Assembly: GCA_913062815.1 (NCBI GenBank)
Contig: CAJXWZ010000012.1
Span: forward strand, 1-64,000
Reading direction: 5' to 3'
From: an uncultured Colwellia sp.
GTDB lineage: Bacteria; Pseudomonadota; Gammaproteobacteria; Enterobacterales; Alteromonadaceae
DNA: 64,000 bases
This document shows positions 10,382 to 38,004 of the stretch, in pieces. Positions within the stretch are counted from its first letter, which is position 1, and every line of letters starts with the position of its first letter. A model generated the notes under the pieces. The model made no database searches. It was given only the letters and a program-made list of their open reading frames with translations, and had not been told where the DNA came from. The position numbers were made by a program, and so were the translations under genes.

Positions 10382-10768
10382 CGAGTTGACTAGACAATCG
10401 CTGCTTGTTGAATTTATTCAACAAGGGGAGGAAAGTCCGGGCTCCAATGAGCAGGGTGCCAGGTAACGCCTGGGCGGCGCAAGCCGACGACAAGTGCAGC
10501 AGAGAGAAGACCGCCGATGGCCGCTTGCGGAACAGGTAAGGCTGAAAGGGTGCGGTAAGAGCGCACCGGATTGCTGGTAACAGTAATTGCAGGGTAAACT
10601 CCACCCGGAGCAAGACCAAATAGGGTTTCATTACTTTCAATAGTATACGCGTGGCTCGCGTGGAAACCGGGTAGGTTGCTTGAGCTATAAAGCGATTTAT
10701 AGCCTAGACGAATGATTGTCACTTTTCTTCGGAGAAGATACAAAACCCGGCTTATGTGTCAGCTCACC
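10382..10768 (+). ncRNA. rnpB: RNase P RNA component, bacterial type A
   Basis: This is the catalytic RNA that matures tRNA 5' ends. Recognised by the conserved segments GAGGAAAGTCCGGGCTCC (10425-10444), the AACGCCTGGGCGGCGCAAGC region, GACCGCCGATGGCC, AACAGGTAAGGCTGAAAGGG, GGTAAACTCCACCCGGAGCA and the closing ACAAAACCCGGCTTAT. It follows rsmI as in related genomes. Ends are estimated by comparison with the E. coli RNA. The 3' end is also the presumed attachment site for the islands that follow. Confidence 0.95.
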
Positions 10769-10803
10769 TATTTAAAGTAACCGTTTGTGAATCAAGCGGT
10801 TAC
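10751..10803 (+). repeat. rnpB 3' end copy A: presumed attachment site plus rnpB terminator
   Basis: The CTTATGTGTCAGCTCACC segment at the rnpB 3' end recurs in altered form at about 14717, 24268 and 26717. After it comes a hairpin, AAGTAACCG with CGGTTACTT, and a T-rich tail (10784-10820), the likely rnpB terminator. I infer that integrases downstream recombine at this tRNA-like 3' end and rebuild it. Confidence 0.7.
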
Positions 10804-10909
10804 TTATTCTTTTAGTTATCAATTGCTTGGTGGCTTTTAGGTGTAACACTAACTGTCACACTAAGTGTTACACTCGCAACTAAAACAAAAGCTCTTAACG
10901 GAGCTAAAA

Positions 10910-11944
10910 ATGAAAGCAATTTCACACTTCAAATATTTATTTCAACGTAATAAAGTCTTTTATTTTAGATTTAAACTCTCTCACAATTTACCTCAGCCAG
11001 AAATAGCGATAAGCCTTAAAACTAAAGTGCTTGCAGATGCTGTTTTCTTATGGCAAAAATTAATCCCTTACACTGAAAAACTTAAGCAGTTAATTTTATT
11101 AGGTGATAGAGTAACTCAGAGTCATTCTAAGCTGTTATTTCAAGGGATTAAGTCAGATATGTTAAAGCAATTACAAATCAATCAAACTGATTCGCTAATC
11201 GCTGAAATGGAGAAAGATTATTCAGCATCAGCTCATATGATGAAAGCATCTGTTGGTGGTGATGGAATTGCTTTTTCAGATGACGATCGTGATCGGCTGC
11301 TCTATCTGCTCGGTGACAGAAATGAAGAAAGTTTTGACATTCGTTTAGGTAAGGTCTTGAAAGCATTAGCACCGGAAGACAAAAACTCCTTTATTGAAGC
11401 TCTTGCTGGTGCTGGTTATATTGCCCATACATATGGCTTTAACTATACTGATGCGTTTGATAATGAAAGGATTATTGAACAGGCAAAAGACCTATTACAG
11501 CGAAAAGGCTTTGTTGTAGATGAAAACTTGATGTCTTTTAAAGTACTTGTCAATAAGATACAAGCCTCACAAAAGATACAAAACGAGATTGCGGGAGCTG
11601 TCCTAAACAATAATTCCATCAGAGAAAGAGAATTGGGGAAGTTAATTGCTCAAACTGATGTTGAATTTCCAATAAAAGAAAGTACTGTATCAACTGCTCC
11701 GCTATTTTCTCAGGTTTATGCCGAGTTTCTTGAACATAAAATTAACAAAGATAAATTGTCCGAGAAAATGCAGAAGGCATATGAACGGTTGCACATAGTA
11801 TGGCTTGCGTTAGCAGAAGATAAACCTATCGATAGCTATACCAAACAAGATATTGGGCGATTTATAGATAGGTGTTTTGAATTACCACGTATGAATATCA
11901 CTCCATACAATAAAATGTATGGTCCGCCTCAATATTGCAAGTAA
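10910..11944 (+). pseudogene. Tyrosine-recombinase integrase, truncated by an insertion sequence
   Basis: Site-specific recombinase gene lying directly after rnpB, the usual place for an island integrase. The start at 10910 is chosen over 10865 because ACGGAGC lies just upstream and because the N-terminus (ISHFKYLFQRNKVFYFRFKL) matches remnants at 15030 and 27039. The 344 residues cover the N-terminal and core-binding parts; the helical core-binding domain runs to GRFIDRCFELPR. The catalytic domain with the R-H-R-Y residues is missing because the IS110-type element starts near 11919, and the last residues are read from IS DNA. The protein is probably inactive. Confidence 0.8.
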
Positions 11945-12148
11945 TAATATCGATAACGTAGTTGGTTTGCGCTAATGTATTCGGAGTCTTTGTTGGTTAC
12001 CCAATATATTAGGCCCAGCTCCACGATGAGATCCGCGCTAGATTGTCCTCAAAAGCGAGTAAGCATACTTATTTATGTTGCTGTAACGCCCCACAGGTCT
12101 TCAATCCAGTGGTCTAACCGTTGTGTCATCTTTATCATCATTTGCAAA
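11931..12148 (-). ncRNA. Candidate IS1111-type seekRNA/bridge-RNA region
   Basis: This non-coding block of about 218 bases lies between the transposase stop and the inner edge of the end repeat. In IS1111-group elements this is where the programmable guide RNA is encoded. I did not fold it and cannot give RNA ends. The call rests on position and on the absence of a convincing reading frame. Confidence 0.45.
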
Positions 12149-13171
12149 TCAGGCTTGTATTCTAACTTCGAATGCTTGTTTAGTTGAAAGTACCGACCAT
12201 GCGATACGTGCTAGTTTATTCGCTAACGCGATCACCACTACGTTAAAATGTTTCCTCGATAGCAATGCTAATATCCAATTACCAAAAACGGCTACGGCTT
12301 TTTCTGGCCTAACAAGAACAGCTCTTGCACCGTGAATGAATAATTCTCGTAAGCCTTTATTCCCTCGTTTGCTTATACCGAGTAATGTTGGCTTACCTCC
12401 AGTTGAATATTGGCGGGGTACTAAGCCTAACCACGCCGCAAAATTTCTTCCATTTTTAAAATCAGTAGCACTGCTTATATCAGATAAACAACGGCTAGCG
12501 GTTAGATTTCCTACACCAGGAATGGTCATGAGTAATTGACCACGCTCATCATTTTCAACTACTTGTTTAAGCTTTTTGTCTTGAACAGAAATAAGATTGT
12601 TAAGTCTCAAATAATAGTCATGGTGGTCTCTTAATTCTAAAAGAAGCATTGGCGGTATAGGCTCACCATGTTCAGCTAGCCATTGGAATAATACTTTCAT
12701 TTTGGCATGAGATTTAGGAAAGCTCATGCCAAACTCTAATAAGGTAGCTCCAATCCGTGACATGCATGCTGTTCTATCTTTTACATAACTTGAACGTATG
12801 CGTTGAATCACAGAGGTAACCTGAGATGATTCAGTTTTTACACTCACAAAACGCATAGTAGGTCGAGCAGCAGCTTCCGCGATAGCATCAGCATCAATGA
12901 AATCATTCTTATTTGTTTTTACATAAGGTTTAACGTATTGCGGGGGAATGAGTTTAACTTTGTGCCCAAACTCTTGACACTTTCGTGCTAGCCAATGAGA
13001 GCCACTACAGGCTTCCATAGCAATAGTTGTTATCTCTAAAGTAGAAAGTACTTGAATCAGTTTTGGACGGCTAAACTTTTTACGATAAACTTCTCGACCA
13101 GATAAGTCATGGCCAACAAGGTGAAAGGTAAACTTACCTATATCAATTCCAAGAATGTTAATAGTAGACAT
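12149..13171 (-). CDS. IS110-family transposase (DEDD recombinase)
   Basis: RNA-guided DNA recombinase of the IS110/IS1111 family. The N-terminal RuvC-like DEDD domain shows D10 in ILGIDIGKF, the Glu of MEACSGSHW near 62-65, and the Asp pair in NDFIDADAIAEAA near 100. The C-terminal Transposase_20 domain shows TIPGVGNLTA, AAWLGLVPRQYSTGGK and RGNKGLRELFIHGARA. Start at 13171 is preferred over 13186 because GAGGAGA lies just upstream of it; the product has 340 residues. It appears full length. Confidence 0.93.
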   Translation of the reverse strand: MSTINILGIDIGKFTFHLVGHDLSGREVYRKKFSRPKLIQVLSTLEITTIAMEACSGSHWLARKCQEFGHKVKLIPPQYVKPYVKTNKNDFIDADAIAEAAARPTMRFVSVKTESSQVTSVIQRIRSSYVKDRTACMSRIGATLLEFGMSFPKSHAKMKVLFQWLAEHGEPIPPMLLLELRDHHDYYLRLNNLISVQDKKLKQVVENDERGQLLMTIPGVGNLTASRCLSDISSATDFKNGRNFAAWLGLVPRQYSTGGKPTLLGISKRGNKGLRELFIHGARAVLVRPEKAVAVFGNWILALLSRKHFNVVVIALANKLARIAWSVLSTKQAFEVRIQA

Positions 13172-13290
13172 GATGGTTCTCCTCATTTAAAAGTCTGCCC
13201 TAAGTGTAGATTAGGGGAGGCGGACCATCTCATTAGCGAGTTAGAGTATATAATCTAATGCACCCATTATCTAATAATTTACAAAGTTAG

Positions 13291-14307
13291 CTAAAGTGAA
13301 TGAAATAGATTGTTACCAACCTTGGTTATATAATATTTTTGCCTTGGGCTTCTTGGCGAATCAGGCTCTGTCATTGCTATCAATCCAGATTCTAGAGCCG
13401 GTGCGATATAGTTATTCTTAAATGTAGGTCGATGCTTTAATGCTAACGCTTCCATTATAATTGTAAGTTTTTGCGGTTCTTTATTATTGAGCCAACTCAA
13501 GAGAGATTTTACTTGATCGCTTACTTGTACTGTTACTTGATCGCTTCGATCGGAGATAACTTCTATCATTGCTGAATGTAATGCTTTAAGCATAAAAAAT
13601 ATAAATGCGGTTGAATCATTTGCTTTATCTGAAGCTGACAACGCTCGGTAATATTCATTTTGTTGATCTTTAATGACAGTTTCTACTGGCAGATATGCAA
13701 ATATTGGCTGCCATTGGCTAAGGTATAATGTTTGCCATAATCGACCCATTCTGCCATTACCATCTGAAAATGGATGGATGAATTCAAATTCATAATGAAA
13801 AATACAACTAGCAATTAATGGATGACAATCCGTGTTTTTTAACCAGTTAAGTAAATCATCTATCAATAACGAAACTCTATTGGCGGGTGGTGCCATGTGG
13901 ATTAACTGTTTTTCTCGATAAATGCCTACGCCTGCATCACGGTATTTGCCAGCATCATCAACTAAGCCATACATGAGAGATTGATGTGCTGATAATAAAT
14001 TACTTGAATTTGTTGCCTGCCACGAAGTAAGGTTTTCATAGGTTTTAAAGGCATTTCTTACTTCTTGAATTTCATGAGGTAAACCTAATACTTTTTTTCC
14101 TGATATCACAGCCGTAACTTGCTCTAAAGATAAAGTGTTATTTTCTATTGCGAGCGAGGCCTGAATGGTTTTAATTCGATTTCCGCGTCTAAGCACAGGA
14201 GAAAGTAGATCTTTATCATTTGCTGACCAATGCCCAAGTAATCGGCTAATATCAGCAACAATATTTAATATGTCATTAGTGATTTGAAATGGTGGTTGAT
14301 ATGACAT
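13291..14307 (-). CDS. Fic family protein (predicted AMP-transferase)
   Basis: Fic proteins transfer AMP or related groups from nucleotides to target proteins. Seen: the complete active-site motif H178-P-F-S-D-G-N-G-R-M-G-R, and an N-terminal inhibitory helix motif S51-L-A-I-E55-N56, which makes this a class II, self-inhibited Fic enzyme. A DUF4172-like N-terminal segment precedes it and a winged-helix-like C-terminal tail follows (about 275-338), after a repeated SDQV stretch. It lies inside the first island, beside the IS element. A 28-codon frame just upstream overlaps its start by one base. Confidence 0.92.
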   Translation of the reverse strand: MSYQPPFQITNDILNIVADISRLLGHWSANDKDLLSPVLRRGNRIKTIQASLAIENNTLSLEQVTAVISGKKVLGLPHEIQEVRNAFKTYENLTSWQATNSSNLLSAHQSLMYGLVDDAGKYRDAGVGIYREKQLIHMAPPANRVSLLIDDLLNWLKNTDCHPLIASCIFHYEFEFIHPFSDGNGRMGRLWQTLYLSQWQPIFAYLPVETVIKDQQNEYYRALSASDKANDSTAFIFFMLKALHSAMIEVISDRSDQVTVQVSDQVKSLLSWLNNKEPQKLTIIMEALALKHRPTFKNNYIAPALESGLIAMTEPDSPRSPRQKYYITKVGNNLFHSL

Positions 14308-14707: not shown

Positions 14708-14710
14708 AGA

Positions 14711-14790
14711 GTTAACTTATGTGTCATCTCACCAATTTTAGTAACCGCTTGATTATCTAATAAATAATTAAGCGGTTTTCTAAAACCCTT
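14711..14790 (+). repeat. rnpB 3' end-like copy B with terminator hairpin
   Basis: ACTTATGTGTCATCTCACC followed by TTTTAGTAACCGCTTGAT closely follows the real rnpB end (CTTATGTGTCAGCTCACC, then AAAGTAACCG). It carries its own hairpin, AACCGCTT pairing with AAGCGGTT (about 14743-14777). This is most simply read as an old island boundary: the right end of island 1 and left end of island 2. Confidence 0.72.
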
Positions 14791-14817
14791 TTTTATCAGG
14801 TCGTTACAGTAAAAAAA

Positions 14818-15029: not shown

Positions 15030-15128
15030 ATGCAATCAGTAAAAGAGTTCAAATATTTATACCTAAGAAATAGTAAATATTACTTTAGGCAACGCGTACC
15101 TAAACTACAAAGCCAATTATCATTTTGA
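15030..15128 (+). pseudogene. Integrase remnant, first 32 codons only
   Basis: A frame starting MQSVKEFKYLYLRNSKYYFR resembles the N-terminus of the integrase at 10910 (SHFKYLFQRNKVFYFRFKL). It stops after 32 codons at TGA, and no continuation of an integrase is visible. This is what remains of the integrase of a second island. Confidence 0.65.
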
Positions 15129-15338: not shown

Positions 15339-15959
15339 ATGGTAGGAATAAAGGGTGAGGCAAGTTTGAATAAGAAGAAGATAAATAATTCTATTCTGGA
15401 TACTTTTAAGCATCATGAAAATGCATTAAAAAAATATATATCGAGATTTTTTTTACCCTCACACGAAATTGAGGATATTTGCCAAGAAACATTTTTGCGT
15501 TCGTTTGAATCAAATATTCAAAATGAAATTCAGCGGCCTAAGTCCTTTATTTATAGAGTCGCAACAAATTTAATCATGTCTCAATATCGTCGTTCAAGTT
15601 ACAAACTTACCGATTATATTGATGACGTAGGTGAAGAATTGGCTCTCGTTTCTACCGCTGACATTGAAAATGATATTGATGCTCAAAGAAAGTTGGGCAT
15701 TTTCTGTGAGTCAATTGCTTCATTGCCAGAACAAAGTAGAAAAATATTAGTGATGAGAAAGGTTTATGGTTACTCAATAAAGGAAATATCGAGCCGTTTA
15801 AAAATGCCAACCAGTACCATTAATTATCATATAGCTAAAGGGATGGTTTGTTGTGATGATGCGATGGAAAGTTATGAGTCGGGTAATATATCTAACAAGG
15901 AGGTTGAGGTGAGTAAAAATGTCACTTTGAGCCAAAAGTTAAAGGGAGGTGTTGAATAA
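15339..15959 (+). CDS. ECF-type RNA polymerase sigma factor (FecI-like)
   Basis: Alternative sigma factor of the extracytoplasmic-function group, expected to be released by the FecR protein encoded next. Seen: region 2 (about residues 28-95, with IEDICQETFLRSF and FIYRVATNLIMSQYRR) and region 4 (about 125-170, LPEQSRKILVMRKVYGYSIKEISSRLKMPTSTINYH recognised as its helix-turn-helix). The start could be ATG 15339 or TTG 15366; the latter has GGGTGAGG upstream. It overlaps the fecR-like gene by one base, so the pair is coupled. The 30-residue tail after region 4 is longer than usual. Confidence 0.92.
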   Translation: MVGIKGEASLNKKKINNSILDTFKHHENALKKYISRFFLPSHEIEDICQETFLRSFESNIQNEIQRPKSFIYRVATNLIMSQYRRSSYKLTDYIDDVGEELALVSTADIENDIDAQRKLGIFCESIASLPEQSRKILVMRKVYGYSIKEISSRLKMPTSTINYHIAKGMVCCDDAMESYESGNISNKEVEVSKNVTLSQKLKGGVE

Positions 15960-17125
15960 TGAGCAATGTAAAAGGTTTCACCAACACTCAAAAAATTAAA
16001 GAAGAAGCGGCGAATTGGTTACTGAAAATCGAAGAGAAATCCCCTCTTTCGCCTCAAGAATCAAATGAACTGAAAGAATGGGTTGCCACTAGCGACATCC
16101 ATCGTTCGGTTATTATTCGTATGTCTCAAACATGGAACAATATGGATGTTTTGGCGGCTATGAGAGTGGCTCCTGAACGCACATCACGATTTTCTATGGA
16201 TAAGTTCAAAGCCTTGTTAGGGTCCAAAATATTAACGACCTTATTTAAACCAAATGATCAGAAGACTGCTCGAAGTTCTTCAATATTTTTCAAGTTGAGC
16301 TCAGTCTCTGCGTGTTTAATAGTCTGTCTATTAATGTTTGATGTGGTAGTTAATGAAGGTGTAAATTCCCAAGCTAACTATTATGTAACGGATATTGGTG
16401 AGTATCAAAAACATATCTTAGAAGATGGCTCAACGCTGTGGTTAAACAGCAATAGTAAAGTTAAAGTCGATTATACTGAAGGTTATCGACGCATTGCATT
16501 GTTAACTGGTGAAGCGCATTTTGAAGTAGAAAAGGATACAACAAGACCCTTTGAAGTTTATGCCAATAATAAGCTTGTTCGCGCTTTAGGAACTGCATTT
16601 TCGGTACAGAAATTAAAAGATAGTATCGAGGTAGTCGTCTCAGAAGGCACAGTAGAATTAGCGGTAGTTGATGAGGTTTTAGTGTTAAACCCCGATGATA
16701 TATCAACCGCTAGCGATATTGAGTCAACAGTAGCGATTAATAATGAACCTGCAAAAGTAGCTAAACATCTAGGAAAACTATCAGCAGGGCAAAGTATGAC
16801 TATTCCTACGGTAACTTCTGCACGCATCGAAGGAGAAGGTAACCATGTTGTGTATCTTGATCAAGGCGAAGTTGGTCGGAAGTTATCTTGGTTAGATGGT
16901 AAGTTAGTTTTTGCGGGCGAAACGTTAGCCGAAGTCGTCACCGAAATAAGCAGACATACCTCGATGGAAATTGATATCCCAGATCCTGAATTGCGAAAAT
17001 TACGGATTGGTGGACATTTTGAAACCGGCGAAACGGATAAGTTATTCAATATCCTTGAATCAGGCTTTGGTATTGAAGTAAATAAAATTAATGGTGAACA
17101 TGTTGAATTACTTAGAAAAAATTAA
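15959..17125 (+). CDS. FecR-type anti-sigma/signal-transfer protein
   Basis: Inner-membrane protein that relays receptor occupancy to the ECF sigma factor. Seen: a cytoplasmic N-terminal DUF4880 region (AANWLLKIEEKSPLSPQESN, about 15-55), one transmembrane helix (about residues 108-128), a periplasmic FecR domain (DIGEYQKHILEDGSTLWLNSNS onward, with ALLTGEAHFEVEKD and RALGTAFSV), and a C-terminal STN-like domain (about 300-385, LVFAGETLAEVVTEISRHT). Between FecR and the C-terminal domain lies an insertion of about 60 residues, longer than typical. Confidence 0.93.
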   Translation: MSNVKGFTNTQKIKEEAANWLLKIEEKSPLSPQESNELKEWVATSDIHRSVIIRMSQTWNNMDVLAAMRVAPERTSRFSMDKFKALLGSKILTTLFKPNDQKTARSSSIFFKLSSVSACLIVCLLMFDVVVNEGVNSQANYYVTDIGEYQKHILEDGSTLWLNSNSKVKVDYTEGYRRIALLTGEAHFEVEKDTTRPFEVYANNKLVRALGTAFSVQKLKDSIEVVVSEGTVELAVVDEVLVLNPDDISTASDIESTVAINNEPAKVAKHLGKLSAGQSMTIPTVTSARIEGEGNHVVYLDQGEVGRKLSWLDGKLVFAGETLAEVVTEISRHTSMEIDIPDPELRKLRIGGHFETGETDKLFNILESGFGIEVNKINGEHVELLRKN

Positions 17126-17148
17126 AACACAAAAAAACAATCAGGAAA

Positions 17149-20100
17149 ATGATTAAATTGAGTTGTACATTTTTCAACGGTAAACGTCCTATATACAGAC
17201 GAGTTATTGATTGCTTATTTAAGTTTGCAATCAGTTTGTTTATAGGACGTAAAAATGTAGTTTGGCTACTTACACGAATAAGTTTATTGTTCGTAAGTAT
17301 TCAAGTTAATGCGACTGATGTTGACAAAATTTATCGATTTGATATTCCTGCCCAATCATTAGTTAAATCGCTTGGGGCTATTTCCCAAGTGACAGAACGA
17401 TTATTTTTATTCCCTTATGACCTCGTTGAAAAACAAGAAAGCAAACACCTTTATGGCTTATATACCGCTCAGCAAGCATTAGATTTATTGCTAGTAGGAA
17501 CCGGCTTAGAGGGAGAACTTTCAGATAATAAAACGTTTATGGTAAAGCCAATGTTGGCACCAAAAAAGAACGTTCAATCAGGCCTAAAAGGGAAACAAGA
17601 ATTGAAAACTCAAAAAACAATATTAGCCACGCTCTTTAGCGTTCTTTTTTCTACTACCTCTGGCGCGGCAGAAGCCAAAAAACAGCTTATTGAGAATGAA
17701 GCTGCCGAAATAGAAATCATCACTGTGTCGGGGATTCGTGGTAGCCTAAAAAAATCAATGAATGATAAACGTTTTTCTACAGAAATAATGGATAGTATTT
17801 CTGCCGAAGATATCGGCCAGTTGCCTGATGAGAATATTGCTGAAGCCTTGCAACGTGTTACGGGAATTCAAATGTCGCGTAGTGCTGACGGAGAAGGTTC
17901 AACCATTCAAATTCGTGGTGTTTCCAATAATAATGTGGAAGTAAATGGTCAAACTTTATCGGGCACTTCAGCGGATCGCAGTGTTAATTTTCAAGATATT
18001 CCTTCCGAATTAGTTTCTGGTATTGAAATACAAAAAGCGCCTACTGCGGATAGAATTGAAGGCTCACTAGGTGGCACTGTAAATCTAAAAACTCGCCGCC
18101 CTTTAGGTATTAAGGAAGATAAAGTTGCTTCGATCACCACTAAGGCAAAGTATGCTGAGTTAAGTGGACAAACTGACCCAGATGTGAATTTTTTACTCGG
18201 TAAAAACTGGCGGGATACTGATTTCGGTGATTTTGGTTTCTTAGTGAATGCGGGAACTAAAACCGTGTCATCCTTGACCGAAGCTTATGGTGGCGGAGAT
18301 TTTGAAACAGCGACAGGGGCGTGGTTTTTACAATCAGGCGATATGCCTAGTAAAAAGCCTTTTAACAAAGGTGACCATGTTGTTGGTGATTTAGATGTAA
18401 ATGGCGATGGCATTGCCGATGCAAATGATAAGTTTTATGTGCCAAATGCCTTTCGACTGTTTTCTAGTGAGCGTGAATCGGTACGAAAATCGTTTAATAC
18501 CACACTCCAATGGCAGCCGAATGAAAATATAAATTTATTCTTTGATGCAACACTTTCTGATAGTGAAGAAGATCTGAAAAATTCTCGTTACAACATTCAA
18601 TTTAATAAGGGCTTAGCGTTACCACTTAGCTCAGGGAATAACCAATTTCAATCATTGGGCAATACACCCAATGGCGAGCATTTCTTGATGACATCTGGCC
18701 GTTTAGGTGGGGCAAACGTTAAACTGGGTTCAGCACCATCAGCAAAAACCACATGGCGTGAATCAGAGCTCTTTACCTTAGGTGGTGACATTCAAATTAC
18801 CGACAACTTGAACGTATCAGCCGAATTGAGTACTTCCAAAGCTAAGAGTTGGACTAATCAAGCAGCATTAACTATGGCTTATGATTGGAACCTCGATGGC
18901 AAGATAAAAGATTGGGGTGGTATTGTCGATTTTGATCATAACAGTGTCGATCTTGCTGATTTTACGTTATATGAGTCTCCCTCTAATACAGGGAATCCTG
19001 AGACATTAAAAGCCATTGATCCAACTGATATTAATTATGAACGTTTGGCTTATGAGAAATACCAGCGAAATGCTGACGATATTAACAATGGCTCAGACGC
19101 ATTTAGGTTAGATGTAACGTATGAATTTAACGATGGCATTATTAGCCAAATCTCTGCGGGTTTACGTGTATCAGAACGTAGTTATGAAAATCAATCCTTT
19201 AGTCACATAGATAAATCAGTGGCAAAAGTGCCAGTTAACCCTGATAACACCAGTAATGAAGCACATAAAGCAACCTCTGAAGCTTTTCAGCAGTGCTTAA
19301 CACCCGTCACAGAAAGTGCACTTTCAGCGCAGTCGGGCAATATGCCACGAACTTGGACATCAACCGGCTGTAGCAGTGACTTTTTTACTGAGTATTTTGC
19401 CTTAGAAAATCTTCGCGCCATTGACCCTGAAACAGGCGCAGGCGTTTATGAAAGAGCCTATGATCGTTTCGATGTATTGGAAGAAACTAGCGCCTATTAT
19501 GTGCGCGCCGATTATTATACTGAACTATTTGGTAAAAATTTCTATGGTAATTTTGGTGCTCGCTATGTTGATACCACAACCACCACGCAAGGCTTTGCTG
19601 ATATTAGTGGCGAGCCACAATGGGTCACTGTTGCTGGCAGTTATACTGAACTATTACCAAGCTTAAATGCTAACCTCGATTTAAATGACGAAATGATTTT
19701 ACGTTTGTCATATGCTGATGTGTTATCTCGCCCGGGTCTAAAGCATTTATCGCCAGGTATTAAGTTAAATAATAATGAGGACTTGCCTGGTTATGCGGGT
19801 AATGGTCAAGCAGGTAACCCTGATTTATCGCCGATTTTAGCCACTAATTTAGATCTTTCTTTTGAATGGTATTATCAAGAGGCGAGCATGTTCTCGGCGG
19901 CGATATTTTACAAAGACATTGATTCTAGTATTGCTTATGGCCCAGAAGCAGTGGATATGACCTTTAACGATGAAATATATAGCGTTCGTCAAAAACAAAA
20001 TATTGCTGGCACAAAACTTGAGGGGTTTGAGTTAAGTCTGGTACAAAATTTGGATTTCCTGCCAGGTTTTTTAACCCATACCGGTGTGAGTGCTAACTAT

Positions 20101-20493
20101 ACATATACTCATGAGGACAGCAGTAATATCGATGCTGAAGGTGAGCCTATCTCACGTAGAGGGCTTTCAGAAGACAGCTACAACCTTGCTGCTTTTTATG
20201 ATGACAATACTATTTCAGTACGTTTAGCCTATAACTGGCGTTCAGAATTTGTTCGCCGTGAATATGTTTTACTAGGTTCGGGCAGTGCAGATAGTTTACC
20301 TGAAATTGAAGCTGGCCGTGGTCAGTTAGACTTAACAGCTAACTACAAGATTAATGAAAACTTTAAAATAAACTTTTCAGCGATTAACTTAAATGAGTCA
20401 ACCACTGAACGTTATCTGAAATATGAAGAGTTAACTAACTATATTTCAGACTCAGGCGTTCGATATAACTTAGGATTAGTTGCTCGTTTTTAA
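17149..20493 (+). CDS. TonB-dependent receptor with N-terminal signalling (STN) domain
   Basis: Outer-membrane transporter that should both import a ligand and signal through the FecR and sigma proteins encoded upstream. Seen: a long N-terminal region with a hydrophobic signal (about 38-58), an STN domain (about 60-130, RFDIPAQSLVKSLGAISQV), then a second signal-peptide-like stretch (about 155-178, ILATLFSVLFSTTSGA), a plug (about 190-320, ISAEDIGQLPDENIAEALQR) and a beta-barrel ending YNLGLVARF. The 1114 residues are long for the class. Downstream sulfatases suggest the ligand is a sulfated glycan fragment. TonB-box candidate: EIEIITVSG. Confidence 0.93.
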   Translation: MIKLSCTFFNGKRPIYRRVIDCLFKFAISLFIGRKNVVWLLTRISLLFVSIQVNATDVDKIYRFDIPAQSLVKSLGAISQVTERLFLFPYDLVEKQESKHLYGLYTAQQALDLLLVGTGLEGELSDNKTFMVKPMLAPKKNVQSGLKGKQELKTQKTILATLFSVLFSTTSGAAEAKKQLIENEAAEIEIITVSGIRGSLKKSMNDKRFSTEIMDSISAEDIGQLPDENIAEALQRVTGIQMSRSADGEGSTIQIRGVSNNNVEVNGQTLSGTSADRSVNFQDIPSELVSGIEIQKAPTADRIEGSLGGTVNLKTRRPLGIKEDKVASITTKAKYAELSGQTDPDVNFLLGKNWRDTDFGDFGFLVNAGTKTVSSLTEAYGGGDFETATGAWFLQSGDMPSKKPFNKGDHVVGDLDVNGDGIADANDKFYVPNAFRLFSSERESVRKSFNTTLQWQPNENINLFFDATLSDSEEDLKNSRYNIQFNKGLALPLSSGNNQFQSLGNTPNGEHFLMTSGRLGGANVKLGSAPSAKTTWRESELFTLGGDIQITDNLNVSAELSTSKAKSWTNQAALTMAYDWNLDGKIKDWGGIVDFDHNSVDLADFTLYESPSNTGNPETLKAIDPTDINYERLAYEKYQRNADDINNGSDAFRLDVTYEFNDGIISQISAGLRVSERSYENQSFSHIDKSVAKVPVNPDNTSNEAHKATSEAFQQCLTPVTESALSAQSGNMPRTWTSTGCSSDFFTEYFALENLRAIDPETGAGVYERAYDRFDVLEETSAYYVRADYYTELFGKNFYGNFGARYVDTTTTTQGFADISGEPQWVTVAGSYTELLPSLNANLDLNDEMILRLSYADVLSRPGLKHLSPGIKLNNNEDLPGYAGNGQAGNPDLSPILATNLDLSFEWYYQEASMFSAAIFYKDIDSSIAYGPEAVDMTFNDEIYSVRQKQNIAGTKLEGFELSLVQNLDFLPGFLTHTGVSANYTYTHEDSSNIDAEGEPISRRGLSEDSYNLAAFYDDNTISVRLAYNWRSEFVRREYVLLGSGSADSLPEIEAGRGQLDLTANYKINENFKINFSAINLNESTTERYLKYEELTNYISDSGVRYNLGLVARF

Positions 20494-20832
20494 CCGGCCT
20501 TATAGGTAGCTGGTCATGAGTTGCTTCCCCTAAATTAGCAAATTATTCCTAGCTTTCCAACCAAAATGGGGTGTCGCATAGGCGCCCCATTTCAATCTAG
20601 CACTCGCTTTTTTAGTCAAAAGTCTAAAATTTGTAAACTAACCCGTTAATTGGTTAACAAACGTAGAACAGCCAAATACAACAGCACCGAAAATTGGTAC
20701 TTGACTCAATAATCTAACGGTATTCAAGTACTTTGTAATCATCAAAAAAATGCTAAAAAGAAAGCTAAATAGCTCAAAGAGAACTGATAGCGTTTTTTGT
20801 GAACCATATATTAAAATTAGTAGAGAAATATT
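20494..20832 (+). other. Gap between receptor and sulfatase genes, with one hairpin
   Basis: A hairpin at 20563-20592 (AAATGGGG with CCCCATTT) lies 70 bases after the receptor stop. It lacks a T-run, so it may stabilise the mRNA end or terminate weakly. The rest is AT-rich and probably holds the sulfatase promoter. Confidence 0.45.
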
Positions 20833-22251
20833 ATGAATAAAATGGCGATCAAACTATTTAATAAAGTAGTTTTAACCACATTACTATGTTGCTCAGCAAT
20901 AAGTTATGCCGCACAAAAACCTAACTTCATTATTATATTAACCGACGACCAAGGCTATGCTGATGTCGGTTTTAATGGCAGTGATGACATTATTACTCCC
21001 AATATTGACCGTATTGCCAACGAAGGTACCAAATTCACTAATGGTTATGTTACCTATGCTGTTTGTGGTCCAAGTAGAGCAGGGTTATTAACCGGAAGAT
21101 ATCAAGGACGTTTTGGTTTTGGCTATAACCCCATTATTGATCCAACAGATAAAATGTCAGGTTTACCTCTTGAAGAACAAATGGTATCAGAAGTGCTTAA
21201 ACCTATAGGTTATACATCAAGTATTATTGGTAAATGGCACATGGGTACCCATGAAAGATTTCATCCCAATAAGCGTGGCTTTGAACACTTTTATGGTTTT
21301 CTCTCTGGTGGTCATAATTACTTTCCCGAAGATTTAATTTATCAAAATATTACTGAAGCAAAAAAATCGAGCAAAGGTGCAGGTTGGTATAACACCAAAC
21401 TATTAGAAAATAATCAGCGAGTTGAAACCGACGAGTATTTAACTGATGAATTATCCAATGAAGCGGTCAAGTTTATTGAGCGAGAACATGACAATCCTTT
21501 TTTCTTATACTTATCTTATAACGCACCTCATACGCCATTACAGGCGTCAAAAGAATATTTAGATCGTAATACTCACATAAAAGATAAAAAACGACGTACT
21601 TATGCGGCTATGGTTACCGCTGTTGATGATGGCGTTGGTAGAGTATTAGCAAAACTTAAAGAGCTAGGTATTGATGAAAATACTATGGTATTTTTCTTAT
21701 CAGATAATGGTGGTTCATCTAAGAATGCATCTAATAATGCGCCACTGCGCGGTAGCAAAGGTGATTATTTCGAAGGCGGCATTCATGTACCATTTGCAGT
21801 GCGTTGGCCGGGTACAGTTCCAGCTGGTGTCGATTATCATAATCCGGTAAGTTCTTTAGATATATTAGGGACGTTTGCCGGAATAACAAACGCGCCAATT
21901 GCCAAAGAACGTCCGCTCGATGGCGTAAATTTGATGCCATTTATTACTGGCCAAAATAAAGGAATACCGCATCAAGTATTGTTTTGGCGTAATTTTGGTC
22001 AAGGTACTTTAGCGATCCGACGTGGTGATTCAAAAGCCATTAATTCTAATAAAAAAGGCCAGCACTTATTTGATTTGACGACCGATTTAAGTGAAAAGAA
22101 CAACCTCCTTAAATCAAACAGAGAGCAGTTTGAACAACATGTTCGAGAGATGAAAAGCTGGGAAACCGAATTAATAGACCCTATTTTTAGGTCATTAATG
22201 AGTCAGAAAAATAAAACTAATAAAAAGAAAAATAACAAGGTTAAACATTAA
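20833..22251 (+). CDS. Sulfatase (arylsulfatase, formylglycine type)
   Basis: Exported sulfatase that hydrolyses sulfate esters, probably on an algal or animal polysaccharide fragment. Seen: a signal peptide (1-26, ending SYA), metal-binding T37-D38-D39-Q, the sulfatase signature C78-G-P-S-R-A-G-L-L-T-G whose Cys is converted to formylglycine, G-K134-W-H136, and LSDNGGSSKNASNNAPLRGSKG near 280-300. The tail is very basic (KNKTNKKKNNKVKH). The length of 472 residues is normal. The next sulfatase begins one base after its stop. No maturase gene is in the window. Confidence 0.95.
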   Translation: MNKMAIKLFNKVVLTTLLCCSAISYAAQKPNFIIILTDDQGYADVGFNGSDDIITPNIDRIANEGTKFTNGYVTYAVCGPSRAGLLTGRYQGRFGFGYNPIIDPTDKMSGLPLEEQMVSEVLKPIGYTSSIIGKWHMGTHERFHPNKRGFEHFYGFLSGGHNYFPEDLIYQNITEAKKSSKGAGWYNTKLLENNQRVETDEYLTDELSNEAVKFIEREHDNPFFLYLSYNAPHTPLQASKEYLDRNTHIKDKKRRTYAAMVTAVDDGVGRVLAKLKELGIDENTMVFFLSDNGGSSKNASNNAPLRGSKGDYFEGGIHVPFAVRWPGTVPAGVDYHNPVSSLDILGTFAGITNAPIAKERPLDGVNLMPFITGQNKGIPHQVLFWRNFGQGTLAIRRGDSKAINSNKKGQHLFDLTTDLSEKNNLLKSNREQFEQHVREMKSWETELIDPIFRSLMSQKNKTNKKKNNKVKH

Positions 22252-22252
22252 T

Positions 22253-23857
22253 ATGAAAAATCCCCTTCATATCAAAAAAGTTATCTCCATAGTGGCAAGC
22301 ATTATTGTAAGCATGATTAGTTTTTCTTCATTTGCTGATGATAATAAACCTAATGTGTTGATTATTTTAGTCGATGACCTAAATGACTACCAAGGAGTTT
22401 TTGGTGGTCATCCCCAAGCCAAAACGCCCAATATTGATAAACTCGCTAAAAGCGGTATCCGCTTTGTTAATGCCCAAACCAATGTTCCGGTTTGCCAACC
22501 TTCACGTAATAGTTTGTTTACCGGTGTATATCCTCATGACTCGGGTGATTACAACTGGACTCCTCAAATCAAACAAAAAGTACTGAAACATAATAAGACC
22601 ATCATCGAGTTGTTTCGCGAAAACGGTTATTACACTTTAGGCACTGGTAAGTTAATGCATAATGACAACCCTGAACTTTGGCATGAGTGGGGCAGACCTG
22701 TCGGTCATAACTATGGACCAACCTATTTTGATGGTGAAAATAAAATTGCCATACCAACCGTGCCTGCACCTTATCGAGAGATAGGGCCTATCGACGGCGG
22801 TTATGGTCGATTATCCGGTGGTGGCTATTCTTCTGGCAAACAGGGTAGTAAAGGCTGGATGAATGGTCAGGATAAAACTATGTTCCGTTACGTTAATGAA
22901 AATAATCGTGATTTATTACCTGATGAACACCATGCTAAATGGGCAGTTGAAAAACTCAATAAACTTGCCAAGTCGACACAAAAACAACCCTTTTTTATGG
23001 GGGTTGGTTTAGTACGCCCTCACACGCCACTTTACGCTCCTGATCGATTTTTTGATATGTTTCCTTTAGATACCTTAGAGCTTGCGCCATGGATGAAAGG
23101 TGATGATAGCGATACTTATTATAGAGACAATTTTCCCGAAGATATTAAAAGCCTAAGGTATTACAGAACCTTGTTAGCTACCTATGATAATGATCATGAA
23201 ACGGCAATAAAACACTTCTTACAAGCTTATTTGGCTTGTATTGCCTTTATGGATGAACAAGTAGGAAAAATCATTGATAGTTTAAATAGCCATGCTGAGC
23301 TTAACAACACCATGGTGGTATTTACTGCTGATCATGGTTGGCAAATGGGTGAAAAAAGCATCTTATTTAAAAACACCCCTTGGGAGGAAAGCGTCCATAT
23401 TCCGCTGATCATACAAAAGCCAGAGAATAAACATAAAGGCAGTGCAGTCAAACACCCTGTATCGCTGATTGATTTATACCCAACCTTGATCGATTATGCG
23501 CAATTAAAAGGTGATAACAAGAAAAACAAAAAAGGCGGAAAACTAGGTGGTTATAGCTTAAGAACTTTCTTGGAAGACCCTAATAGCCAAAAATGGCAAG
23601 GACCCAATGGTGCCTTAACCGTGGTGGGAAATTACCATCAAGTAGCTAACATCGATACGGTTAATAAGCAAAATTACTCATATAGAACTCAATACTGGCG
23701 TTATATCCGTTATAGCCAAGGACAAGAAGAGCTTTATGATCATCGTATTGATCCGTATGAAAGAGTTAATCTTGCTAAAGAACCTGAACATCAGCAAGTG
23801 AAAAAGAAATTATTAAATGAAATAAAAATGATAATAGGGCAATCTCTTATTGATTAA
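22253..23857 (+). CDS. Sulfatase (iduronate-2-sulfatase-like)
   Basis: Second exported sulfatase, in tandem with the first. Seen: a signal peptide (1-28), metal-binding D41-D42-L-N-D-Y, the signature C81-Q-P-S-R-N-S-L-F-T-G with the Cys that becomes formylglycine, GTGKLMH, VRPHTPLYAPDRFFDMFP and FTADHGWQMGEKSILFKNTPWEES. The DDLNDY start and PHTP-HGW-GE blocks are characteristic of the iduronate-2-sulfatase-like subgroup; the true sugar substrate is unknown. The 534 residues are normal. It is coupled to the preceding gene. Confidence 0.94.
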   Translation: MKNPLHIKKVISIVASIIVSMISFSSFADDNKPNVLIILVDDLNDYQGVFGGHPQAKTPNIDKLAKSGIRFVNAQTNVPVCQPSRNSLFTGVYPHDSGDYNWTPQIKQKVLKHNKTIIELFRENGYYTLGTGKLMHNDNPELWHEWGRPVGHNYGPTYFDGENKIAIPTVPAPYREIGPIDGGYGRLSGGGYSSGKQGSKGWMNGQDKTMFRYVNENNRDLLPDEHHAKWAVEKLNKLAKSTQKQPFFMGVGLVRPHTPLYAPDRFFDMFPLDTLELAPWMKGDDSDTYYRDNFPEDIKSLRYYRTLLATYDNDHETAIKHFLQAYLACIAFMDEQVGKIIDSLNSHAELNNTMVVFTADHGWQMGEKSILFKNTPWEESVHIPLIIQKPENKHKGSAVKHPVSLIDLYPTLIDYAQLKGDNKKNKKGGKLGGYSLRTFLEDPNSQKWQGPNGALTVVGNYHQVANIDTVNKQNYSYRTQYWRYIRYSQGQEELYDHRIDPYERVNLAKEPEHQQVKKKLLNEIKMIIGQSLID

Positions 23858-24262: not shown

Positions 24263-24335
24263 TTGAGTTGACTTATGTGTTAACTCACACCTTCAAACAA
24301 ATCAGCCTCTACAGTAGTGTAGGGGCTTTTTTTAT
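24263..24335 (+). repeat. rnpB 3' end-like copy C with terminator
   Basis: GACTTATGTGTTAACTCACACC is followed by CTTCAAAC and a strong terminator (GCCTCTACA with TGTAGGGGC and T7). The same block, almost base for base, recurs at 26712-26775. It marks another likely island boundary. Confidence 0.7.
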
Positions 24336-24639
24336 ATTTGAAGCGCAATGGTAATAAAGTGTACCTGAATTCATTTATACCTATCTGAATGCTAGATAGT
24401 GCTACATTAATAATTACTATTCTTGATTGTCATATCTAGTGTTTTAACAACATCCACCGTCTTCATTTTATTACGTAGTTCATAACTCATGATTTTTCGA
24501 CTATAGAGGTTTACCCGTGTTCAATGTCACACAGGCAGCTTAGAAATTGAAAAAGCACTTTTGCGTTACCTTTTAAAAGTGTACTGCCATTCGTAATTTT
24601 AATATTTAACCATTGTTAGGTAAGCAATCGTTTTCACTA
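24336..24639. other. Non-coding stretch after copy C
   Basis: AT-rich sequence with no recognised gene. Unlike copies A, B and D, no integrase N-terminus was found after this copy. Confidence 0.45.
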
Positions 24640-25140
24640 TTAATATGTTTTATTTTTTCTGAATCCAACTAATGCTAGGAGCAGCAATAAAGCAGAGCTT
24701 GGCTCTGGTACCGACGCAATATATTGTGATACTCCAAAAGATTCAAACTCGACAAACCCAGATACACTTGTGAAGGTATATGTTTCATCTGCTAAAAAAA
24801 TAAGGGGGTCAGAGAAATCATTTGGGCCTCGACCTGAGCTTTGAGCTTCTAATTTAACGCCTAAGCCGGTTATATCAAAAAGACCATCGAATGCCCAATC
24901 AATGACATAATAAGAAAAAAGTATGTCTTTATCTGTAACAACAGACCACGAATCACTCAGTTCAATGCCATCGCCATTATTAACAAATGCCCCTGTTTTT
25001 TTAAAAAAGGTAAGGCTAATATCGTCAACTGCTTGTGTAAATTCTGATGCACCATTAACCCCTTGGTCAAAATAAATTAAGCCGGCATTGGCTGACATAG
25101 ATATCATTAGTGAGGTGAAGAGTGCCATTAAATAACGCAT
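24640..25140 (-). CDS. PEP-CTERM sorting-domain protein
   Basis: Exported protein of unknown role with a C-terminal sorting signal. Seen: a signal peptide (residues 1-19, ending ANA), a middle region rich in Asp, Ser and Phe that looks like a small beta-sandwich, and a C-terminal VPEPSSALLLLLALVGFRK tail, the PEP motif plus hydrophobic helix plus basic end recognised by exosortase systems. AAAGGAAA precedes the start. No exosortase gene is in the window. It is a lone gene inside the third island. Confidence 0.85.
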   Translation of the reverse strand: MRYLMALFTSLMISMSANAGLIYFDQGVNGASEFTQAVDDISLTFFKKTGAFVNNGDGIELSDSWSVVTDKDILFSYYVIDWAFDGLFDITGLGVKLEAQSSGRGPNDFSDPLIFLADETYTFTSVSGFVEFESFGVSQYIASVPEPSSALLLLLALVGFRKNKTY

Positions 25141-25277
25141 ATACGTTTCCTTTAGTTACAACTGAATACTAAGATATTGCTTATTATTCTAGAGTTTTTG
25201 CTTTTTAGAAAAGCAAGTTGGATTAGAGTAGCTAGACAAAAATATCGTCGGCTACTCAAGTGTATTGCAATTAAATT

Positions 25278-25820
25278 TTAGAATACGCCGTTTGAATTGC
25301 GGATGCTTCCACCGCTGATCAAGGAATAAAAACGCATAAAACCATCAAGTGCTTGAATAGAATCCCAATGCTCAACGATTTTTCCGTCTTCAATACGCCA
25401 AGTATCAATGATATTCATACCTTTTTGATCATTTCCCCTATCTTCTTTTTCAAGGGTTACATGAGAATGAAATATGACGAAATTACCATCTACATAGATA
25501 TGTTTTACCTCATAAGAGTACTCTGGATAATCCTCTACAAACTCCCGCAAAAAATTAACTAAGCCGGTGACCTTATCAGGTATATTACGATTTTGTTGCG
25601 TATAAGTACTGTCATTAAAGTGCTTTAAGACGTATTCAAAATTATGCTCATTCATCAGCTTTTGTACGAAATCAGTGAGTAGTTTCGCGTTTTTTAGCTC
25701 ATGCTGTGTCCAGTTCGATTTCTGTAACAATTGAAAATCAATAACAGGTTTGTCACTACTTTGTGCGTTTGATCCGGTGCTTAATAAAATTAACAATATA
25801 AGGAAAATATTTTTCCACAT
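25278..25820 (-). CDS. Exported NTF2-like (SnoaL-like) protein
   Basis: Small exported protein with the cone-shaped NTF2-like fold, a fold used by many unrelated enzymes and binding proteins. Seen: a signal peptide (1-19, ending SNA), then LTDFVQKLMNEHNFEYVLKHFNDSTYTQQN, FVIFHSHVTLE and IIDTWRIEDGKIVEHWDSIQ, the typical SnoaL-like C-terminal pattern. Substrate unknown. It is divergent from the HxlR regulator at 25975, which suggests that the regulator controls it. Confidence 0.82.
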   Translation of the reverse strand: MWKNIFLILLILLSTGSNAQSSDKPVIDFQLLQKSNWTQHELKNAKLLTDFVQKLMNEHNFEYVLKHFNDSTYTQQNRNIPDKVTGLVNFLREFVEDYPEYSYEVKHIYVDGNFVIFHSHVTLEKEDRGNDQKGMNIIDTWRIEDGKIVEHWDSIQALDGFMRFYSLISGGSIRNSNGVF

Positions 25821-25841
25821 AAATAATTCCTAAAACTTAGT

Positions 25842-25929
25842 TTGGTTACTAATTGGTACTATGGTAATTTATAGTAACTTACGTTGCAATTAGGCACGTA
25901 AACATGCCTTAGGCACAAATTGGTAACCA
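25842..25929. promoter_or_regulatory. Divergent promoter region with candidate HxlR operators
   Basis: TTGGTTAC (25842-25849) and GTAACCA (25923-25929) form a widely spaced inverted pair. A TGCCTTAGGCA palindrome lies at 25905-25915, close to a TAGGCA half at 25891-25896. The region separates an HxlR gene from its probable target. Operator function is an inference. Confidence 0.4.
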
Positions 25930-25946
25930 CTACGTGGAGGAATAAC

Positions 25947-25988
25947 ATGAAAACGAAAAATTGTAGGGCCTGTGATGACAGAGAATAA
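25947..25988 (+). CDS. Possible 13-codon leader peptide overlapping the HxlR gene
   Basis: An ATG with an excellent ribosome-binding site (GTGGAGG, 25934-25940) opens a 13-codon frame, MKTKNCRACDDRE, that ends at TAA (25986-25988) inside the regulator gene in another frame. The regulator start itself has only a modest site. Either this is a translated leader with two cysteines or a frameshift moved the original start out of frame. Confidence 0.4.
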   Translation: MKTKNCRACDDRE

Positions 25989-26361
25989 TAAAAGAGCAAG
26001 ACGAAAGTTCAACAACGATGAAGAGTGCCCAATTCGTAATGTTGTTGCTCAAATAGGTGATAAGTGGTCTATGCTCATTTTATTTGCATTGGTAGATGGT
26101 GCAGATAGATTCAATGCACTTAAATCAAGAATTTTAGGGATCTCTCAACGTATGTTGACCCAAACACTACGCGACTTAGAGCGAGAGGGATATGTGAAAA
26201 GAACGGTGTTTCCTGAAGTTCCAGCAAGAGTGGAATATGAACTGACAGCAATGGGAAGAGGTATCGTTAAACCTTTATATCAACTAGTTAGTTGGGCGGG
26301 CGAACATCACGATGACATTAAAAACTCTCGTATTGCCTATGACAAAATGACTCAATTATAA
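25975..26361 (+). CDS. HxlR-family transcriptional regulator
   Basis: Winged-helix DNA-binding regulator of the HxlR family, often a sensor of electrophiles or redox state through cysteine. Seen: C-P-I near residue 20 (EECPIRNVVAQIGDKWSMLILFAL), then FNALKSRILGISQRMLTQTLRDLEREGYVKR and PARVEYELTAMGRGI, the family hallmark wing. The start is ATG 25975; GTG 25972 is an alternative. The 128 residues are normal. It is divergent from the NTF2-like gene. Confidence 0.92.
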   Translation: MTENNKRARRKFNNDEECPIRNVVAQIGDKWSMLILFALVDGADRFNALKSRILGISQRMLTQTLRDLEREGYVKRTVFPEVPARVEYELTAMGRGIVKPLYQLVSWAGEHHDDIKNSRIAYDKMTQL

Positions 26362-26703
26362 ATGAGGAAGTTAGCTACAACCTAGTATAAATATAGCGCC
26401 ATTTAATCATTCTTTAGTGACTGTCATATAGTGTCTAATCTTACCTGCCAAAACAGTAAAAGCTAGTATATTTAATTGCCAGACTAGGTTTAGTGTATTT
26501 CTCTGGTATTCAGCGAGCGAAAGCTAGATAGAGTTCATAATCTAATGCCAACGGCCCATGAAGGTATAGAACACCTAAAACGAGCTCAATTGCTCAAATG
26601 TTTTGGATTGCTCTGTGTATTTCAAGACCTTTTAATGGAAATTTATCTAAGTACAGATGTTTTTAAATACTCTATAAAATAAACAGCAGGTTAAAGTTTT
26701 CTC
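26362..26703. other. Non-coding stretch before copy D
   Basis: AT-rich sequence with no supported gene. The last bases before copy D (GGTTAAAGTTTTCTCTTGAG) resemble the bases before copy C (TGTTAAAATCTATTTTTGAG). Confidence 0.4.
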
Positions 26704-26707
26704 TTGA

Positions 26708-26776
26708 GCTGAATTATGTGTTGACTCACACCTTCAAACGAATCAGCCTCTACAGTAGTGTAGGGGCTTTTTTGTG
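26708..26776 (+). repeat. rnpB 3' end-like copy D with terminator
   Basis: AATTATGTGTTGACTCACACC, CTTCAAAC and the same GCCTCTACA/TGTAGGGGC terminator as copy C. Copies C and D bracket the PEP-CTERM, NTF2-like and HxlR genes (about 2.4 kb), as expected of a discrete insertion unit. Confidence 0.7.
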
Positions 26777-26859
26777 AGAAAATTTCAACTCCGTTCAAAC
26801 CTCAACTAACGCGTCTTCCAATTTCTCTCTCTTTAATTTAGCCATCAATTTATCCCCAA

Positions 26860-27038
26860 TTTTCTAAAAGTATCACTACCAAATGTCTCTACGGAATAGA
26901 TTTAGGCTCAACTTTTTGCCGGATAAACTTTTATCTCATATTTTTATTTTTAAAAAATAGCATCGTTAATATTATTAAAATCTGTGATGCACACTTTGGT
27001 ACACGGTTGTTAAATATGAGTCAGCTTGGTTAGGTAAA
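26860..27038 (+). repeat. Pre-integrase region related to 14.86-15.03 kb
   Basis: The segment near 26885-26945 (CTCTACGGAATAGATTTAGG, GGATAAACTTTT, CTCATAT) and GGTACACGGTT near 26997 match the sequence that precedes the integrase remnant at 15030. Confidence 0.6.
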
Positions 27039-27071
27039 GTGCAGGCAGTTTCTGGTGCTAAGTATTTGTAG
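27039..27071 (+). pseudogene. Integrase remnant, first 10 codons only
   Basis: GTG opens a 10-codon frame, VQAVSGAKYL, ending at TAG. It aligns with the start of the remnant at 15030 (MQSVKEFKYL). It lies at the same distance and in the same sequence context after an attachment-like copy, so I read it as the last trace of a third integrase. Too short to stand on sequence alone. Confidence 0.45.
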
Positions 27072-37998: not shown

Positions 37999-38004
37999 GT
38001 TTAC

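Follow-up and report, generated by a model that had tools for sequence, protein, structure and literature searches.

The 3' end of the RNase P RNA gene (rnpB) of an uncultured Colwellia sp. is followed by four units, each of which is very probably an integrative island, or the remains of one, inserted serially at this end by a tyrosine recombinase of the DUF3258 type. The units were found in a 64,000-nucleotide stretch of contig CAJXWZ010000012.1 (positions 1 to 64,000; hereinafter referred to as the window). Serial insertion at the rnpB end, as proposed in an earlier note on this DNA, is supported by the anatomy of the region, the kinship of the integrases within one clade, the flanking copies of the rnpB terminus, the compatibility of helix P1, occupied and empty sites in E. 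coli, clean rnpB ends within the genus, and a second stack in another genome (G155).

Copies of the rnpB 3' terminus

A full-length match to the rnpB model was present in the window. The genes rsmI and rnpB, treated as direct neighbors in the earlier note, are separated by a beta-lactamase-like gene. The features from rnpB onward are as follows:

10382..10770, + strand, rnpB, RNase P RNA class A (Rfam RF00010, 322 bits), its 3' end being the proposed landing site
10751-10768, + strand, copy 1 of the rnpB 3' terminus, within rnpB itself
10775..10805, + strand, hairpin of the unit 1 left end (CCGTTTG..CAAGCGG); similar hairpins follow rnpB in integrase-bearing relatives
10910..11944, + strand, unit 1 integrase, truncated tyrosine recombinase (PF11646 DUF3258, E 1.7e-9)
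12149..13186, - strand, IS110-family transposase (PF02371, PF01548), adjoining the cut point of the unit 1 integrase
13291..14307, - strand, Fic protein, unit 1 cargo (PF02661; PADLOC SoFic E 1.6e-42)
14709..14733, + strand, copy 2, att site GAGTTAA-CTTATGTGT-CATCTCACC, unit 1 right half and unit 2 left end
14744..14776, + strand, hairpin of the unit 2 left end
15030..15122, + strand, unit 2 integrase N-terminal remnant (tblastn, E 4.7e-4 to 0.016 with 7 of 9 queries)
15339..23857, + strand, unit 2 cargo: ECF sigma factor, FecR, TonB receptor, and two sulfatases (Pfam)
24265..24289, + strand, copy 3, att site GAGTTGA-CTTATGTGT-TAACTCACA
24304..24333, + strand, native-type rnpB terminator 3' of copy 3
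24640..26361, unit 3 cargo: PEP-CTERM (- strand), SnoaL-like (- strand), and HxlR regulator (+ strand) (Pfam)
26706..26730, + strand, copy 4, att site GAGCTGA-ATTATGTGT-TGACTCACA
26745..26773, + strand, native-type terminator 3' of copy 4, near-identical to that of copy 3
26809..27204, + strand, unit 4 left end: GGTACACGG repeat and decayed integrase N-terminus

Matches to the rnpB end started at 10751 (rnpB), 14716, 24272, and 26713, in agreement with the four related copies reported earlier. When the 17-nt rnpB end was searched with up to 4 mismatches, four places were found within 20 kb 3' of rnpB, namely the three downstream copies and a site at 19715. In 200 dinucleotide shuffles of that 20 kb, the mean was 0.23 matches and the maximum 2, and the observed count was never reached; the copies, which the earlier note had set against random DNA, were thus better than chance. 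The match at 19715, which lay inside the TonB-receptor gene and had no inverted half-site, was regarded as fortuitous. A stricter motif, combining the inverted left half with TTATGTGT, matched exactly the three downstream copies and none of the 200 shuffles. The sequence GAG(T/C)T(A/G)A lay directly 5' of each downstream copy, forming an inverted-repeat core, as att sites should have. No further convincing att copy was found in the contig scanned to 84 kb; candidates at 41716, 42824, and 70991 were rejected, being scattered and having 4 or 5 mismatches and no inverted half-site.

A hairpin with a T-rich stretch was present 3' of all four copies, as the earlier note had stated. The terminators after copies 3 and 4 were near-identical (58 of 61 bases, by eye from the alignment), and the hairpins after copies 1 and 2 were unlike them.

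An origin of the copies by tandem duplication of the rnpB tail, followed by splitting through unrelated insertions, was also considered. Such tail repeats exist, with 113-bp spacing in E. coli, where we take them to be the known rnpB tail repeats, and as units of ~265 bp in another genome (G103); the near-identical terminators of copies 3 and 4 would also fit this origin. Like the window copies, the E. coli repeats are partial rnpB 3' ends with a terminator after each, but they contain longer rnpB segments, are spaced in tandem, and have no recombinase or cargo between them. The window copies have only about the last 18 nt in common with rnpB; 5' of CTTATGTGT they carry GAG(T/C)T(A/G)A, whereas rnpB has AACCCGG, and the rnpB sequence 5' of CTTAT that marks tail tandem repeats is absent. 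Moreover, the far ends of several integrase-bearing islands carry a GAG-type half-site in similar form, and integrase DNA follows three of the four copies. On the half-site and repeat evidence, tandem duplication was rejected as highly improbable.

Integrases and cargo of the four units

The earlier note had placed an integrase or a remnant after three of the copies, and this was confirmed: integrase sequences were located at 10910-11944, from 15030, and at ~27039, and none was found in unit 3 after copy 3 (24272). The unit 1 integrase comprises the N-terminal and core-binding part; its alignment to full-length relatives ends at PYNKM, and the catalytic domain is gone. For units 2 and 4, N-termini were detected by tblastn, with E values referring to a search space of 84 kb. 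The unit 4 remnant (27039-27068 and 27124-27204) was weak alone at the protein level (best E 0.13). At the DNA level, 26809-27070 matched the left end of an element in a Colwellia MAG (L068) with 79% identity over 263 bp, and 27093-27204 showed 75% identity over 113 bp to the same MAG, in which the matching element has an open integrase frame. About the first 100 bp of the unit 4 left end had no match to the elements of relatives.

The cargo differed between units, again as previously described: IS110 and Fic in unit 1, the sigma factor, FecR, receptor, and sulfatase genes in unit 2, and the PEP-CTERM, SnoaL-like, and HxlR genes in unit 3, in which the PEP-CTERM match was just under the Pfam cut-off. 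The Fic protein was similar to SoFic, a candidate defense protein. The sequence around copy 3 (24233-24332) resembled the far end of the C. echini element (74.5% identity over 106 positions), and 24272-24333 showed 81% identity to the rnpB end of an empty genome (G207).

A single larger island that entered at rnpB in one event and was subsequently fragmented by internal deletion and by recombination between its att-like repeats would be in line with the lack of any intact integrase, with unit 3 having none, and with the likeness of copies 3 and 4. It is nevertheless very unlikely: one event yields two copies, not four, the integrase N-termini behind three of the copies are different from one another, and copies 1 and 2 have other hairpins than copies 3 and 4.

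In serial site-specific insertion, the recombinase would join the att site of an island with the rnpB 3' end, with the strands exchanged around CTTATGTGT, where the rnpB body meets the 3' strand of P1. The gene would retain its promoter and body, but its P1 3' strand would now come from the island, as would the hairpin in the window and in several Colwellia-type islands. The displaced native end and terminator would end up at the far end of the island. The rebuilt rnpB end would again be a target, so that later islands would insert at rnpB and older ones would be pushed outward. Consistent with islands, a recombinase beside its target, direct repeats at both ends (units 1-3), a restored gene, and empty sites in relatives were found. 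The case is weakest for unit 3, which has no integrase and is flanked by two near-identical terminators, and therefore could be a duplication or deletion product; as an island, it would have lost its integrase.

The scan of the contig to 84 kb did not reveal where unit 4 ends on its outer side. Genes near rnpB in relatives map here to 36-44 kb and 71.7-79.7 kb, indicating that the region is rearranged. No excision product was observed. Since no unit retains an intact integrase, the stack is probably immobile now, and the units are, judging from their sequence, remnants rather than active elements.

Occupied and empty rnpB ends in relatives

Immediately 3' of rnpB, an integrase of the same clade or a remnant is present in at least 15 of 246 genomes of the family, a lower bound because not every one of the 73 family genomes with a match was checked. 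In the order, 11 of 20 scanned loci had a same-clade integrase at this position, 10 of them outside the family, and an integrase of this clade, or a remnant, directly followed rnpB in 18 of 5,426 E. coli. When genome contigs were scanned for the integrase, rnpB was upstream in all six loci. Open integrase frames were present in relatives. In the integrase tree, several branches were long and their placement was unsure. One side branch is located at a TPP riboswitch.

A clean rnpB end (empty site) was found in 7 of 11 genomes of the genus. Cargo-free relatives that still carry the copies, which the earlier note had regarded as evidence against stacking, were not encountered: no convincing extra copy was present in these seven genomes, two of which had one 4-mismatch match each, without hairpin or half-site. 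The second stack belongs to another of the 11 genomes (G155). Its rnpB ends lie in rnpB itself and at +10900 and +11038, and an integrase N-terminus follows both rnpB and the +11038 copy.

Of 24 occupied loci, 15 had a second rnpB end downstream; among the nine in which no far-end copy was accepted, four had <8 kb of sequence and five had at least 19 kb. L060 (+11957) and L103 (+6656) were counted despite 4 mismatches because a native-type terminator follows. L108 (+4644, 4 mismatches, 0.03 expected) was left out of the count, and may be a true far end, with an rnpB-like ACCCGGCTTATCGGCC and an island-type hairpin. The 4-mismatch matches in L047, L054, L056, L059, and L103 (+2316, the first of two) were attributed to chance (0.08-0.16 expected, without terminator or half-site). 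A scan for the GAG-type motif, which misses far ends other than Colwellia-like types, yielded one further match in 34 loci (~784 kb 3' of rnpB), in L109, which was taken as chance.

Comparison with known islands

Genomic islands at the 3' ends of tRNA and tmRNA genes have a tyrosine recombinase beside the target RNA gene; the element restores the 3' end, a direct repeat lies at the far end, and tandem stacking is possible. The rnpB stack shares all these traits. It differs in its target, RNase P RNA, and in that the element restores a single strand of helix P1, which has to pair with the 5' end of the host gene.

This kind of element is already known from the flk-type flagellin islet of E. coli, which, like the window units, lies directly after rnpB and has an integrase of the same clade. 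In CFSAN061761 and ECC-1470 the gene order is garK-rnpB-[integrase ... flagellin, repressor]-yhaC, compared with garK-rnpB-yhaC in K-12. Occupied rnpB is identical to that of K-12 up to position 369 and then diverges, and the native end, terminator, and repeats reappear after 9.2 kb; in CFSAN061761 the native end and terminator lie at the far end of the islet. Unlike the window, this is a single islet with flagellin cargo, and its flagellin and repressor genes were not present in the window units. In strain H240 the integrase shares 31.6% identity with that of C. echini, with 58% of the query covered. A published description of the ECC-1470 flk islet (PMC5422975) does not contain the word rnpB in its available text. 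In the open-licence literature, covered by titles, abstract starts, or passages and not extending to the primary flk papers (Feng 2008; Liu 2012), no text on rnpB as an integration site was found; where rnpB or island terms did occur in the passages, they were incidental or belonged to references.

Since related enzymes occupy this position in other marine bacteria as well as in E. coli, rnpB appears, by sequence comparison, to be an overlooked docking site for mobile islands. Although RNase P RNA is essential, the end of its gene takes up cargo that includes flagellins, a sulfatase cluster, and a candidate-defense-type Fic gene. The rnpB end also offers a simple marker for locating other islands. 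There is perhaps an even chance that the recombinases form a clade specialized on the closing stems of structured RNAs. Such a clade would replace the P1 3' strand of RNase P RNA throughout Enterobacterales, and one of its branches would have switched to the thiM TPP riboswitch, with the island carrying most of the aptamer itself and separating thiMD from the promoter.

Helix P1 and terminators after insertion

Of 29 loci, 27 had all 8 pairs of P1 (26 in register by eye); among random strands the fraction was 0.018. In 4 of 14 loci the near P1 strand was unlike the far one, and the rebuilt P1 of these four keeps, partly as read by eye, 8, 7, 7, and 8 of 8 pairs; mismatches in the rebuilt P1 were found in L061, L068, and, in register, L103. 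These loci amount to natural exchanges of P1 strands in a ribozyme of known structure. The idea that every island brings a terminator was abandoned, as only 11 of 24 occupied rnpB ends passed the hairpin-plus-T-run rule; by the same rule, the flk-type islet has no terminator before its integrase. Three E. coli carriers of the islet were examined (L072, L098, and L099); their P1 3' strand and tail were unlike those of K-12, indicating that insertion can edit the mature RNA.

Copies of the rnpB 3' end in the window

The last bases of rnpB recurred at three downstream positions of the window (14716, 24272, and 26713; copies 2 to 4, with the gene's own end as copy 1).

10382-10770, rnpB (class assigned by Rfam match)

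A search with the 17-nt rnpB end, allowing up to four mismatches, returned four places in the 20 kb downstream, namely the three copies and position 19715, against a mean of 0.23 and a maximum of 2 in dinucleotide shuffles (n = 200); the copies are therefore better than random AT-rich DNA, and the match at 19715 was taken as a chance one. A motif including the inverted left half retrieved exactly the three downstream copies and occurred in 0 of 200 shuffles, so that the extra rnpB ends claimed in the earlier note are real and lie above the shuffle level. Copies 2 to 4 consisted of GAG(T/C)T(A/G)A-(C/A)TTATGTGT followed by a right half of the (T/C)(A/G)(A/T)CTCAC type, forming an inverted-repeat core, and at rnpB itself the left half was the rnpB sequence AACCCGG. 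A hairpin with a T-rich stretch followed all four copies, as had been proposed, and the terminators behind copies 3 and 4 were near-identical.

The integrase or integrase remnant expected behind three copies was found in units 1, 2, and 4 of the proposed successive islands, and no integrase was found in unit 3. Of the unit 1 integrase, 344 residues remained, covering the N-terminal and core-binding regions and carrying PF11646 (DUF3258). It broke off at PYNKM, a point beyond which full-length relatives run on into the catalytic domain; an IS110 transposase adjoined it. Unit 2 retained about 25-31 codons at 15030 (7/9 queries, E 4.7e-4 to 0.016). The decayed integrase N-terminus of unit 4 was weak at the protein level, and the left end of this unit showed 79% identity over 263 bp to the element of locus L068, a Colwellia MAG with an open integrase frame.

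Repeats of GGTACACGG were present between att site and integrase (14819, 14989, and 26998), and likewise in G038, G235, G189, G153, G155, and L068; they are possible arm-type integrase sites. A cluster at 36658-43795 included a histidine kinase and a MacB-like transporter, and its relatives lay 7-15 kb after rnpB in the empty-site genomes G135 and G207.

Within the genus of the window, G155 had two further copies downstream of rnpB, at +10900 and +11038; integrase N-termini lay behind the first and third of the three ends. The window is thus not a single oddity, and the serial stack suggested earlier has a second example. In such stacks, newcomer islands would insert at rnpB and shift older ones outward; the innermost integrase being the least decayed fits this order, as far as one stack allows.

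Integrases at rnpB in other genomes

The unit 1 integrase matched 12 of 246 family genomes, and a wider profile (A2) matched 73 of 246 at 1e-10; several checked A2 loci adjoined tRNA, tmRNA, or SRP RNA, not rnpB. By coordinates and Rfam, an integrase or remnant of the DUF3258-type clade lay directly 3' of rnpB in at least 15 of the 246 (G000, G038, G047, G071, G140, G141, G144, G153, G155, G168, G180, G189, G210, G218, and G235). At the order level, 23 of 394 genomes matched at 1e-30. Twenty of these loci were scanned for upstream RNA, giving rnpB at 11 (10 outside the family), tRNA at three, a TPP riboswitch at two, and none at four; the other three were G000 and G038, known to be at rnpB, and L097, for which a subsequent scan returned no hit. 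A genome contig scan placed rnpB beside 6/6 loci, including Colwellia echini, Glaciecola sp. 33A, and Thalassomonas sp. M1454. At the class level, matches at 1e-50 were confined to 2 of 369 genomes, that of the window and one in which the match adjoined a tRNA. Remoter recombinases within the larger family lay next to SRP RNA, tmRNA, or tRNA genes (L073, L157, L146, L074, L138, L142, L144, L148, L149, L150, and L159).

The islands rebuild the 3' strand of helix P1, the partner of the gene's 5' end. All eight P1 pairs were kept in 27 of 29 loci (fraction for random strands, 0.018); L061 and L068 kept seven, and L103 reached eight only off register. The P1 strand of window copy 2 was that of the L068 rnpB, where the integrase frame is open. 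In E. coli, the island strand converts a G-U pair to G-C.

Far ends and empty sites

A second rnpB end was found downstream in 15 of 24 occupied loci examined (window, G038, G155, G141, G153, G071, G210, G475, G567, G277, G345, G416, G441, G375, and E. coli CFSAN061761). Hairpins with T-runs were seen behind 12 of 14 far copies (window left out), and behind rnpB in 6/7 empty genus genomes versus 11/24 occupied rnpB ends; therefore, most far ends carry a native-type terminator, and island-supplied sequence varies. Extra copies in relatives free of cargo would speak against insertion. Seven of 11 genus genomes (G078, G109, G135, G174, G191, G207, and G222) had a clean rnpB end, and none of these seven showed a convincing extra copy over the next 19 kb (6 kb in the case of G191). 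One four-mismatch match apiece in G078 and G222 was taken as chance.

The far copy of G210 (L062, L117), 25 kb after rnpB, exceeded the tail (model positions 161-303), and a possible far copy of L108 (G168), at 4.6 kb, had AACCCGG ahead of CTTAT. Neither an integrase gene after rnpB nor a far copy in the following 19 kb was seen in L063 (G130), which had an island-type hairpin and left end directly 3' of rnpB and looks like a scar. Just 3' of rnpB, G103 had four shortened rnpB copies, G237 two, and G052, G133, and G001 one each, all roughly 200-240 bp long. In G103 (L064, 0.1-1.9 kb after rnpB), these were followed by a small two-gene cassette with an att-like end, antitoxin/toxin-like by eye. 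G048 had a 357-bp partial rnpB copy some 5 kb upstream of rnpB.

The E. coli flagellin islet

The empty order garK-rnpB-yhaC (K-12) corresponded to garK-rnpB-[islet]-yhaC in CFSAN061761 and ECC-1470. The CFSAN061761 rnpB equalled that of K-12 to position 369 and then diverged; the native end and repeats returned 9.16 kb later. Of 5,426 E. coli genomes, 18 contained 80% or more of the rnpB-integrase query. In EH10-18-47 the islet lay between other flanking genes, and 21.6 kb of sequence showed no far copy. In ECC-1470, integrase, flagellin, and repressor genes lay 3' of rnpB, the repressor being so named in CFSAN061761 and EH10-18-47 but labeled otherwise in ECC-1470. PMC5422975 describes the flk islet of ECC-1470 and cites papers treating flk phase variation. 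Among open-licence papers on rnpB or flk, none presented rnpB as an integration target, as judged from titles, the beginnings of abstracts, and selected passages.

Integrase tree and TPP riboswitch islands

A tree of 27 integrases grouped 17/17 rnpB-associated sequences into a single branch of 21 rows (100/99), and the integrases adjoining tRNA or SRP RNA fell outside it. Because a TPP pair (100/100) and two integrases of unknown target also sat inside the 21-row branch, the rnpB label needs two changes; several end branches were long.

Clade-integrase islands at a TPP riboswitch were found in L158 (14997-25653, E. coli N921), L121, and L122. In N921, rcnR was followed by a TPP aptamer, the integrase, Drt2 with other genes, another TPP aptamer, and thiMD. 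The first TPP copy equalled K-12 up to GCGTAG; the second combined a 5' part carried by the island with the host leader from GGGAAGTC onward, an arrangement by which thiMD would be separated from its own promoter.
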